Positions 856 through 62,145 of a stretch of DNA of 64,000 nt are shown in pieces (within the stretch, counting starts at the first letter, position 1; each line of letters opens with the position of its first letter). Both the position numbers and the translations under genes were made by a program. This DNA comes from a virus: IMG/VR virus record IMGVR_UViG_3300041402_000314, positions 140,150-204,149 of that record. One strand, written 5' to 3'. A model generated the notes under the pieces. That model searched no databases. It was not told the DNA's origin and worked only from the letters and a program-made list of their open reading frames with translations.

Positions 856-1498
856 GATAAATCTCAATGTTTTCGAAACCATATTTTTCTAATTCCTTGG
901 CATAGTCTTCAGCCTCATCCCTAGTCAACCCATATTTGTCTGGTCTTAGAGATATAGGATGATCACCAGTAACATACCATTTTTCTTTTCGGTCTTTGGC
1001 TTCGTGTATTACAAGATGGAAGTTCTGGGCATTAGTCTTAGCTCTTCGCTCACCATTACAGTATTTAGGGTCACAGTTACGCACAAACCAATCGGTTATC
1101 ATATCATAATCAACCATACGACTGATTGGATGCCAGAATAATACCTTGAGGTCATCTACAGTATTCCATAGAACAGAAATGTTTACAGGCATATCATTTA
1201 CTTCACCGACCTTTACCATCAGACCAGAATTATCCTGTACCCACTCATTTTTACGTTCCTGACAATCTTTCCATAGATAGAGACTTTCACAGCTATTGGC
1301 CTCAACCACAAAATCAGTTGTTTTGAATCGAGTATCTGAATGTTTAGTTAGGTCATATTCATTCACGTCTGACGGCTTTAAGGGAACTGCAATATGTCTG
1401 GGGTCTGTGTTGATATGAAACCATAGATTCCCATTATATCGAATTTTCTCTCCACAAGCAACACAAATAGCTTCTTCACCTTTTTTAGGGTCTTTCAT
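839..1498 (-). CDS. Hypothetical protein with N-terminal zinc-binding CxxC (219 aa)
   Basis: ATG at 1498 follows GGGAG. The N-terminus carries CVACGEKI and a nearby WFHINTDPRH, which could form a Cys2His2-type zinc site. The segment AVPLKPSDVNEYDLT resembles GVPINPYDLTDLSNY in the next gene upstream, so the two may share a small common element. The remainder matches no family I know. It is the last gene before P1 in the operon starting at P2. Confidence 0.7.
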   Translation of the reverse strand: MKDPKKGEEAICVACGEKIRYNGNLWFHINTDPRHIAVPLKPSDVNEYDLTKHSDTRFKTTDFVVEANSCESLYLWKDCQERKNEWVQDNSGLMVKVGEVNDMPVNISVLWNTVDDLKVLFWHPISRMVDYDMITDWFVRNCDPKYCNGERRAKTNAQNFHLVIHEAKDRKEKWYVTGDHPISLRPDKYGLTRDEAEDYAKELEKYGFENIEIYLDKKD

Positions 1499-58398: not shown

Positions 58399-58429
58399 TT
58401 TTACTCCTCCCTTATACTTTATTCAAAAA

Positions 58430-58504
58430 TGGTGTAGTGAACTGGATTTGATACCAATATCGCCCAAGCTGGTGCAAGGGAGTTCTAACTTAAACTACCA
58501 CTAC
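58430..58504 (-). ncRNA. tRNA-like RNA 1 with encoded ACCA end
   Basis: 75 nt. Acceptor-like stem GTAGTGG/TCACTAC followed by ACCA; T-A; D-like stem-loop GTTT-AAGTTA-GAAC; a central segment CCCTTGCACCAGCTTGG with poor pairing (two T-T mismatches) and no normal anticodon loop; GCGAT; T-like arm ATTGG-TATCAAAT-CCAGT with an 8-nt loop. No GG in the D-loop and one base too many in the T-loop. A functional tRNA is unlikely. Confidence 0.6.
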
Positions 58505-58527
58505 AAATTTGTTTAACTGCTTATTGT

Positions 58528-58642
58528 GAGAGAGGGCTTCAACAACTGGTTACTAATCGAGGCTTTCACCAGTGAATCCTATTTGCACAAAGCCTCTATA
58601 GCGACTAAGACTTCAAGTGTTATATTCGTCTAACACTCTCTC
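58528..58642 (-). ncRNA. Structured RNA 2, 115 nt with 7-bp terminal stem
   Basis: GAGAGAG/CTCTCTC closes the element; inside are hairpin TGTTA-GACGAATA-TAACA and an 8-bp stem GAGGCTTT/AAAGCCTC, with a CTGGT/ACCAG alternative. No CCA end. It has no open reading frame of note. It lies between two tRNA-like RNAs and is probably cut from the same transcript. Confidence 0.5.
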
Positions 58643-58658
58643 CCAATAAATAGTTAAA

Positions 58659-58730
58659 TGGTGTGGGAAGTTGGACTTGATACCAACATCGCTCGGTATT
58701 CTCCGACATCTTAACTTAGACGACTCCCAC
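58659..58730 (-). ncRNA. tRNA-like RNA 3 with encoded ACCA end
   Basis: 72 nt. Acceptor-like stem GTGGGAG/TTCCCAC plus ACCA; T-C; D-like arm GTCT-AAGTTA-AGAT; a 4-bp stem TCGG-AGAATA-CCGA in place of the anticodon arm; GCGAT; T-like arm GTTGG-TATCAAGT-CCAAC. It shares the loop AAGTTA, GCGAT and TTGGTATCAA with RNA 1, although the stems differ, which indicates selection on structure. Confidence 0.65.
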
Positions 58731-58740
58731 ATAAAACTAA

Positions 58741-58868
58741 TGGATAGTTGGTTCGGAAGCTTTTTTGAATTATAATCCTCGCCAATAAACTCGGATTCGG
58801 CTTTCATTAATCACTTGGTATTCTACAGTCGTAACCGATTGAACCCTAAGTGTTTCCTCTTCCAACTA
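58741..58868 (-). ncRNA. Structured RNA 4, 128 nt, 7-bp acceptor-like stem and TCCA end
   Basis: TAGTTGG/CCAACTA followed by TCCA. Inside: CACTT/AAGTG stem enclosing a hairpin around TCG-GTTA-CGA, and an AATCC/GGATT hairpin. AGAATACC also occurs in the central loop of RNA 3. It is the first element behind promoter P11. Function unknown. Confidence 0.5.
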
Positions 58869-58908
58869 CCCAAATCAAATTTTTAAAGAACTTTTACTTT
58901 ATGATACT

Positions 58909-58937: not shown

Positions 58938-58953
58938 GCTTTATTTTAAAATA

Positions 58954-59118
58954 ATTAGTGGTGTGCTATTACGCCAAAGGGAACAGGGAACAGTAACCCA
59001 AATTTACGCCTCTATACTGTTTCTTCCTTGGAGGTTCGCTGTTACGGTACGCTTCTTAATACAACATAAGAACCCACTCTTTAAAAGATGGCTGCTTCCA
59101 AGCCAACCTCCCACTAAT
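58954..59118 (-). ncRNA. 23S rRNA GTPase-associated-centre (L11-binding domain) mimic
   Basis: 165 nt closed by ATTAGTGG/CCACTAAT (as helix 42). Then GTTGGCTTGGAAGCAGCC (59107-59090), ATCTTTTAAAGA (59089-59078) and, after about 103 nt of extra sequence, GCGTAATAGC (58974-58965). These equal E. coli 23S rRNA 1060-1076, 1077-1088 and 1091-1100 (GUUGGCUUAGAAGCAGCC, AUCAUUUAAAGA, GCGUAAUAGC) with few changes. A1067 is G; A1095 is kept. The insertion sits in helix 44 and has its own stems (TTCTTA/TAAGAA; AACAGTA/TACTGTT). A full 23S gene is absent. Confidence 0.88.
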
Positions 59119-59157
59119 CAATTCAAAGAACTTTTATTACTTTTACTTTATGATACT

Positions 59158-59186
59158 ATTATAACAAATTCGATTCTGGTTGTCAA
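59158..59186 (-). promoter_or_regulatory. Consensus sigma70 promoter P10 of the GAC-like RNA
   Basis: TTGACA (59186-59181), 17-bp spacer, TATAAT (59163-59158); a start near 59151 lies about 30 nt before the RNA's terminal stem. Confidence 0.88.
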
Positions 59187-61254: not shown

Positions 61255-62145
61255 TTAACTGTTATAATTTTCAATGACGTTTTGAATATCCTTCAGTGCT
61301 TGAGTAGCCTTATCAGGATTAACCACACATTTATCTAAAGAACCATAATACTCTTCAAGGCAGTTTAGAAGTAAATTCTTGATAGCTCCCTCATCAGGAG
61401 AATGGGGCAGCTTAGAATTAAGATACAAAGTTTCTAATTCAGCTTCTTTCTTTTGAAAATAATTTTTAATATCATCAATAGACCATTCGCCCTTTCTGAT
61501 GGCTTTCAACTGTTCTCGATTCCTTTCTAAATCTAAATCCCCTTCCATCATAATTTGTTCCACTTCTCCGAGAAGACGTGGAACGTGATAAGCAAATTTA
61601 GTGTCAAATCCATGACGGTCTACTAAATCCTTTCGCTTTCCTGCTTTGGGTTTTTTAATTTCCATTTTATGTAATTGACTATAACTATAACCTTTGAAGC
61701 GATGCCACGCTCCTTTATGAAGAAAATCCTTTCGTTTCTCTCTAATCATATTACCTATTTTAGTTGAATGTGTAATACATCTAATAGGGACGAAGAGAGC
61801 ATCTATAACATTAGGATTATTATCCATACAAAGTTGAAAGAACTTAATAATGGAAAAAACTTGAAAATCGTATTCCTTTTCTCCGTCTTGCGACTTCACA
61901 TGATGTTCTTGATAGGTGTCAAATCTTTTTATCTGCCTTCCGAAACCTTGAATTTCTCCATTGAGATGTGGAAAAATCATATCTTTATGTGGGATACATA
62001 CTCCGTATACATCTACATCAGAGGTATCATTAGAAACCCCATACGCAAAACTACCCATAATAACTTCATATACCATGCTATTAGGCAACCATTTAGGAGG
62101 ACTAATTAGTTTTTGTTTATCCAACTTTTGTACATAACTACTCAT
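61255..62145 (-). CDS. RlaP/COG3541-type nucleotidyltransferase
   Basis: 296 aa. IMGSFAYGVSNDTSDVDVYGV is the GSxAYGxxxxxSDxDxxG motif of the COG3541 (PF10127) pol-beta nucleotidyltransferases, predicted to take part in RNA repair. FQVFSIIKFFQLCMDNNPNVIDALF and GYSYSQLHKM are family features too. Has the two catalytic Asp (DVD). ATG overlaps the upstream stop by 4 bp. Confidence 0.85.
   Translation of the reverse strand: MSSYVQKLDKQKLISPPKWLPNSMVYEVIMGSFAYGVSNDTSDVDVYGVCIPHKDMIFPHLNGEIQGFGRQIKRFDTYQEHHVKSQDGEKEYDFQVFSIIKFFQLCMDNNPNVIDALFVPIRCITHSTKIGNMIREKRKDFLHKGAWHRFKGYSYSQLHKMEIKKPKAGKRKDLVDRHGFDTKFAYHVPRLLGEVEQIMMEGDLDLERNREQLKAIRKGEWSIDDIKNYFQKKEAELETLYLNSKLPHSPDEGAIKNLLLNCLEEYYGSLDKCVVNPDKATQALKDIQNVIENYNS

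Follow-up and report, generated by a model that had tools for sequence, protein, structure and literature searches.

What is a piece of the ribosome doing in a phage genome? The window analysed here (a stretch of 64,000 nt, bases 140150-204149 of a 204,149-nt virus contig) holds a short locus that the first-pass annotation had read as a phage-encoded mimic of the GTPase-associated centre (GAC) of 23S rRNA. Does its RNA have the GAC fold, is it shared by other phages, and what could it do in an infected cell? The GAC RNA is about 175 nt long, lies on the minus strand and folds as helices H42-H44 of 23S rRNA, with an additional arm (P4) of 97 nt in H44. Its features are listed below with E. coli numbering of the 23S rRNA.

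59158-59186, minus strand: predicted sigma70-type promoter, TTGACA-N17-TATAAT with extended -10 TG (12/12 consensus match).
59123-59131, minus strand: boxA-like GTTCTTTGA, within a short leader and immediately 5' of the first stem (sequence match).
59111-59119, minus strand: P1, the 5' strand of H42 (1047-1055), pairing with 58953-58961 (covariation).
59085-59109, minus strand: H43 hairpin (1057-1081), with G at 1067 (59099) and C at 1072 (59094) (Rfam match, mapping).
59076-59084, minus strand: GAC junction 1082-1090 (UUAAAGAGU), with the 1082:1086 pair (U-A, C-G and A-U alternate among relatives).
58979-59075, minus strand: extra arm P4, 97 nt, inserted between 1090 and 1091 (closed by G-C, G-C, G-C).
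58975-58978, minus strand: UUUG linker joining P4 to H44 (conserved in the class).
58963-58974, minus strand: H44 hairpin 1091-1102 (GCGUAAUAGCAC), with A1095 at 58970 (mapping, conservation).
58953-58961, minus strand: P1, the 3' strand of H42 (1104-1112) (mapping).

The E. coli numbering can be carried through the RNA without a gap, 1043-1090 corresponding to 59123-59076 and 1091-1116 to 58974-58949. The pairs formed in the window RNA are 1047-1055 with 1104-1112 in H42, 1057-1059:1079-1081 and 1062-1064:1074-1076 in H43, and 1087:1102, 1090:1101, 1091:1100 and 1092:1099 in H44. A1095 is present in the loop, position 1067 is a G, the tertiary triple is of the C|CG type and 1082:1086 is U-A. 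The insertion in H44 had already been noticed, at about 103 nt; it consists of a 97-nt arm plus the UUUG linker. The perfect sigma70 promoter, previously reported without a strand, was recovered at 12 of 12 positions and lies on the minus strand; from the promoter consensus alone, transcription is predicted to start at about 59151. A second perfect TTGACA-N17-TATAAT (12/12) is located further downstream at 58937-58909 on the minus strand, and all five perfect sigma70-type promoters of the window are on that strand. Of 161 relatives, 6 have a boxA-like box in the 150 nt upstream, against 0.4% of random stretches; this putative box is treated as a minor feature.

In a 1-kb search, the Rfam bacterial LSU model matched 59110-59067(-) with E=2.6e-4. 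Searching the whole contig gave E=2.6e-7 for a match restricted to model positions 1097-1144. The score at the GAC RNA was 26.6 bits, below the family cut-off of 50 bits because the P4 arm interrupts the match. At such a score the site could not be assigned to a full or split LSU rRNA gene. Moreover, the LSU model found no other segment in the whole contig, in agreement with the first-pass annotation, which had recognized no other part of 23S rRNA. A structure-aware scanner, combining two sequence profiles with P1 and H43 pairing and built from relatives, scored the site at 103.7 (103.4 when the window was excluded from training), and no score above 25 was obtained in 4.2 Mb of reversed sequence. 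The GAC RNA is present in a single copy in the contig. Neither ARAGORN nor Rfam detected a tRNA or tmRNA cloverleaf at the site, and none of the Rfam covariance models (GOLLD, ROOL, HEARO, YrlA and others) matched the GAC RNA in the window.

Of the checks initially recommended, Infernal/Rfam gave an LSU match below cut-off and fold prediction no GAC. The energy-only fold of the window RNA (z=-1.8) misses the GAC, and imposing the GAC pairs costs about 13.5 kcal/mol. Since the GAC was not recovered, energy-only folding was abandoned as evidence for the fold. Support for the GAC fold comes from sequence comparison of relatives rather than from folding energy.

To collect relatives, an exact 20-mer with G at 1067, which should miss normal bacterial 23S rRNA, was used as a probe and was present in 11 further viral contigs. 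Most of these contigs share a second half, (C/U)UUUGGCGUAAYAGCACA, 110-475 nt downstream. Scanning for this second half returned at least 119 contigs, with the H43 motif upstream in 115 of 128 places among the matches listed, and scanning for the variant UUUGGUGUAAYAACACA returned 83 contigs. The search for the same core in related phages finally yielded 162 non-redundant GAC RNA cores, a count that includes some related sequences. Exact-pattern scans bias the 3' motif; less biased scans with the 5' half only were used as a control and were in agreement.

The carriers include the Pseudomonas phages pf16, Astolliot, Milchi and UNO-G1W1, Aeromonas phage 4_4572, Cronobacter GAP32, Pectobacterium CBB, Serratia BF, Erwinia Kaldavass and SNUABM phages, Xanthomonas XbC2, XaC1 and XacN1, Acinetobacter ME3 and Vibrio 2.275.O, together with two megaplasmids. 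The class occurs in phages of several host genera, with a patchy distribution among large phages, and several carriers are isolates on ordinary hosts, such as pf16 on Pseudomonas putida. In the regions viewed, no RNA is annotated at these loci, and a few records call a short internal ORF. Among the one-per-species bacterial and archaeal genomes of GTDB, an H43-like match was found upstream of 15 of 48 17-mer hits. We judged 14 of these 15 to be real, several of them MAG contigs, the pattern being otherwise mostly due to chance. In a Flintibacter muris isolate, where the RNA probably lies in a prophage, its ends are the same as in viral contig L028. E. coli genomes gave no match.

Some variant forms were also observed. 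Pseudomonas phage Astolliot has, just upstream of its first GAC RNA, another GAC-like RNA that has diverged and carries U1072 and U1092:A1099-type bases (L135, 2680-3000). Two contigs, of 159 and 322 kb, hold compact GAC-like RNAs that stand alone, have G1067 and lack the extra arm (L011, 2610-2680, and L003, minus strand, near 2000, respectively).

In a set of 97 cores, the pairs from 1055:1104 to 1049:1110 are kept in 80-97 cores, with shuffled means of 40-80. Covariation support for H43 comes from pairs 1057:1081 and 1058:1080, the latter being kept in 96 of 97 cores (GC 37, UA 34, AU 20, CG 3) against 41.6 in shuffles. The 1082:1086 pair is kept in 86 of 97 (UA 48, CG 24, AU 14) against 51.9. 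When 13 full-length RNAs were compared with an explicit structure, 95.5% of cells paired, compared with 78.1% in shuffles, while every slid register failed, with at most 51.8% of cells pairing. Changes on both sides of a pair were found in 48 cells against 12.3 in shuffles, and none of 500 shuffles reached the observed value for pairing or for two-sided changes.

Shuffles ignore relatedness. For this reason, more weight was given to two other observations. The triple C1072-C1092:G1099 is a known tertiary contact of the ribosomal GAC (PMC8614978). In our collection, the triple 1072|1092:1099 is C|CG in 104 members, U|UA in 57 and C|UA in one, so that 161 of 162 are concordant. This test is conservative, because the search pattern did not include 1072 and the 5' profile was biased towards C. 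In addition, Erwinia phage Kaldavass and viral contig L281 carry near-identical RNAs separated by 12 substitutions, seven of which are compensatory (C1072U+C1092U+G1099A, A1082U+U1086A and G1054A+C1105U).

Thus, the secondary and tertiary contacts of the GAC are under selection. The compensatory changes at these contacts indicate that the RNA adopts the GAC tertiary fold, and we have hardly any doubt that the class is a real GAC-fold RNA. The original reading of the locus as a phage-encoded GAC mimic is strongly supported by the covariation and the triple switch in relatives, where the H42, H43 and H44 pairs show none of the decay that was looked for. Hardly any variation is seen in the class at A1095, A1098 and the loop-loop contacts, or at the bases required for the fold. 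Position 1067 behaves differently: it is A in 80% of C|CG-type and 47% of U|UA-type members, and G in 15-50%. The G reported at this position is correct for the window RNA; it is no special feature, and G1067 was ruled out as a signature of the class since most members have A.

P4 begins directly after U1090 and ends directly before UUUG. Its closing pairs 1 to 3 are kept in 161, 159 and 150 of the 162 members (expected 87, 86 and 66), and its length ranges from 22 to 441 nt. One sub-type has a small GNRA-type hairpin between GGCAC and GGUAAGGC, another ends ACCCUUAGAG, and some members have an additional hairpin inserted after 1077. P1 pairs continuously, so the retained unit is 1051-1108 and no L10/L12 stalk site is evident. 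The phage RNA shares with the 23S rRNA GAC (E. coli 1051-1108; RF02541, LSU_rRNA_bacteria) H42, H43 and H44, the 1082:1086 and 1072-1092:1099 contacts, the A1095 loop, A1103 and a numbering without gap. It differs in being stand-alone, in the 22-441 nt P4 and UUUG between 1090 and 1091, in its phage-specific P1 ends, in having A or G at 1067 and in scoring far under the Rfam cut-off; moreover, 1101 is an A able to pair with U1090, whereas E. coli has U1101. The same H42-closed unit is excised in the 58-nt GAC RNA of the laboratory, which binds L11 and thiostrepton; Draper and colleagues reportedly found that this 1051-1108 58-mer binds L11 on its own. The latter is a construct, whereas the phage RNA is a natural excision with P4 added, spread among phages.

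The genomic context was then compared among members. Of the 162 members, 70 have a same-strand tRNA gene no more than 200 nt away, and one has such a neighbour on the opposite strand. The corresponding count among the first 97 members is 50, compared with 13% of positions chosen at random in these loci. Within 150 nt, tRNAs flank the RNA on both sides (41 downstream, 45 upstream). tRNA genes are present in 44 of 47 carrier records, often 20-70 of them; about 40% of members showed no tRNA up to 1 kb away, some of these loci being short. In the window phage, nearly all of the 32 tRNA genes are more than 170 kb distant on the contig. An L11 gene was found in none of 49 carrier records, while the same search was positive in all 14 control genomes. 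No neighbouring protein family recurs apart from HNH-like endonucleases (10 loci), and no ribosomal-protein gene lies behind the GAC RNA, as it would behind a leader. The LSU model matched the GAC region in 16 of 51 carrier records, at model positions ~1071-1169 and always below the cut-off, and found no other 23S segment in these 51 records.

In the window, the GAC RNA belongs to a cluster of RNAs that appear structured, with a 669-aa DUF2135-like gene downstream. A link to this gene, or to a 327-aa gene beside an RlaP-like gene, was rejected. Relatives of the two genes had no GAC RNA within 4-6 kb, two pattern hits near them missed the 5' half, and none of 17 larger DUF2135-bearing records contained the RNA. 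Pfam assigns the product encoded at 61255-62145 (minus strand) to the RlaP family of nucleotidyltransferases (E=6e-20), whose name refers to RNA-repair pathways.

These comparisons suggest that phages make a decoy of the host ribosomal GAC. The first-pass proposal of a decoy or effector RNA that would bind L11 or GTPase factors is reasonable as a hypothesis. The GAC RNA would be a stand-alone, trans-acting phage RNA with the fold of the uL11-binding domain and P4 inserted in H44, probably produced as a stable RNA and, in many phages, together with the phage tRNAs. In the infected cell it would bind host uL11 and possibly also capture, through uL11, a factor that docks on the GAC. The uL11-dependent work at the ribosomal factor site would be reduced, above all the activation of RelA-type alarmone synthetases, whose response to uncharged tRNA would be weakened much as by a relC mutation. 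In the simplest case, the stringent response would be weakened and factor-dependent translation altered. P4 would set the stability of the RNA or supply a second contact. A trans-acting decoy capturing uL11 is the best mechanism that we can propose from the sequences, with a chance of being right that we place somewhat short of even. The fuller proposal, in which the GAC copy captures uL11 (or factors with uL11) and so blinds the stringent response or retunes translation, a counter-defence by rRNA mimicry, is put forward a shade more tentatively.

We infer that the partner is a host component, because the 49 carriers have no L11 gene and no recurrent neighbour except HNH-like endonucleases. 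Capture of uL11 is favoured over direct capture of a factor because the retained unit is the 58-mer, no stalk site is evident, 1067 is free to vary and the bases required for the fold hardly change. RelA activation, like Rel function in Caulobacter, requires uL11 (PMC7058999), which together with H43/H44 constitutes the factor-binding site (PMC5960728). The weak point of the decoy model is its stoichiometry relative to ribosomal uL11: as this protein is abundant and ribosome-bound, the decoy would need either to reach very high levels or to catch uL11 that is newly made or exchanging. A factor, a tRNA elbow or an enzyme as ligand would also leave much the same traces of selection on the fold, and the conservation of P4 in differing sub-types hints at a role beyond simple capture. 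If uL11 is captured, phages would possess an RNA-based means of disturbing factor recruitment and RelA, and what uL11 does during infection could be tested directly.

Other ligands have to be weighed against uL11. The loops (1067 and 1095 regions) might directly dock translational GTPases or RelA/SpoT-type proteins, uL11 binding being incidental. Isolated GAC RNA is said to bind EF-G (Munishkin and Wool, in 1997), the class hardly varies at A1095, A1098 and the loop-loop contacts, and H43/H44 with uL11 do form the factor site (PMC5960728). However, 1067, the base contacted by factors and thiostrepton, is not restricted to A (G in 15-50%), and P1 shows no break for the factor-recruiting L10/L12 stalk site, which makes direct docking unlikely in our opinion, though worth keeping in mind. 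The RNA might also act as a sponge for whatever attacks or modifies the GAC (a host or rival toxin, nuclease, methyltransferase or thiopeptide), thereby protecting translation during infection. It is a close copy of the target shape and is often found among phage tRNA genes, whose presumed role is to make up for the tRNAs that host defences destroy. Against such a sponge, we know of no widespread anti-phage toxin aimed at the GAC, and a thiopeptide sponge predicts a fixed A1067, whereas this base varies; we regard it as rather improbable. Slightly more improbable again is a role as tRNA helper, with P4 and the GAC surface that meets the tRNA elbow binding phage tRNAs or assisting their processing. 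Tight clustering with tRNAs on the same strand (70 vs 1 of 162) and two chimeras of tRNA-like RNA and compact GAC (L015 and L019) speak for this role, but position 1067, which stacks on the elbow, is variable, about 40% of members have no tRNA within 1 kb, and those of the window phage are nearly all more than 170 kb away.

Two further explanations fare worse. Control by rRNA mimicry in cis is well established, and the RNA could be an autoregulatory GAC mimic preceding a gene, as in the leaders of ribosomal-protein operons. This reading is disfavoured and in our view very improbable, since no downstream gene family recurs, tRNAs occur on both sides and carriers have no ribosomal L11 gene. The RNA could finally be a relic or the product of chance: a captured 23S fragment, a chimeric assembly or a functionless convergence. 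Real 23S pieces do occur in some phage records, for example in that of Paenibacillus phage Pd_22F (L188, MZ092003.1), which contains genuine host-like 23S rRNA sequence, probably an artefact of assembly or packaging. For the class, a relic or chance origin is refuted, with next to no probability left, by the covariation, the compensatory substitutions between close relatives and the triple switch, by conservation across phages of several host genera with a scanner null of zero, and by the fact that the carriers tested never contain another 23S piece. Chimeric assembly or a host 23S piece was excluded for the class by the scanner null and the LSU searches of carriers; an exact match to host 23S, looked for as a sign of chimerism, was not found.

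How does this decoy reading, with uL11 as the favoured ligand, relate to known RNAs? The leaders of L1, L10, S8 and L20 mimic rRNA and act in cis on the host ribosomal-protein gene. They and other ribosomal-protein mRNA leaders likewise imitate the binding site of a ribosomal protein, but the phage GAC RNA has no such gene nearby. YrlA and bacterial Y RNAs (RF02553) are also non-coding mimics of a translation RNA, in their case tRNA; the YrlA fold is different, and there is no YrlA match to the GAC RNA itself. Identity with YrlA, tmRNA or tRNA was rejected for want of Rfam or ARAGORN support. GOLLD, ROOL and HEARO are structured RNAs of phages or mobile elements, often near tRNAs; as they gave no Rfam match in the window or relatives, they were rejected too. 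The stable RNAs C and D of phage T4 (rnaC and rnaD; L136, 1909-2172), whose function is unknown (PMC3014915), are also small stable RNAs inside a phage tRNA cluster. They are not members of the class, the scanner finding no GAC core in T4 69000-75000.

Rfam has no family for the GAC RNA, only sub-threshold LSU fragments, and no description of such an RNA was found in a full-text search of mostly open-access papers. Both results are consistent with the initial statement that no phage RNA of this kind had been described. Mimicry of rRNA by cis leaders, of tRNA by YrlA and the sponging of proteins by RNAs are known in principle. To our knowledge, no free phage RNA copying a functional centre of the ribosome is known. 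Here, a ribosomal functional centre, among the oldest RNA structures known, appears to have been excised and reused by phages as a free RNA that went unannotated. Its natural covariation, including the switch from C-C:G to U-U:A, also provides a new body of data for this model RNA fold.

Several other RNAs were noticed near members of the class. In viral contigs L015 (~1030-1200) and L019 (~255-440), a compact armless GAC lies inside an apparent tRNA-like RNA with an acceptor-like stem, L015 also having a T arm, GUGGUUCGAAACCAC. Virus contig L075 (376 kb) has at 1253-1479 (minus strand), next to its GAC RNA, a pair of YrlA-like RNAs whose Rfam hits are below threshold. In the window, two cloverleaf RNAs missed by ARAGORN and Rfam are located at 58427-58506 and 58656-58732 (minus strand). 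They have acceptor stems of 7-8 bp followed by CCA, a D-like arm, a short anticodon-like arm and 8-nt T loops (UAUCAAAU and UAUCAAGU), and look like tRNA mimics rather than tRNAs. Two more structured RNAs with long closing stems are found at 58512-58658 and 58741-58877 (minus strand), the latter preceded by a perfect promoter of its own (58937-58909) and by a GTTCTTTAA box resembling that of the GAC RNA.
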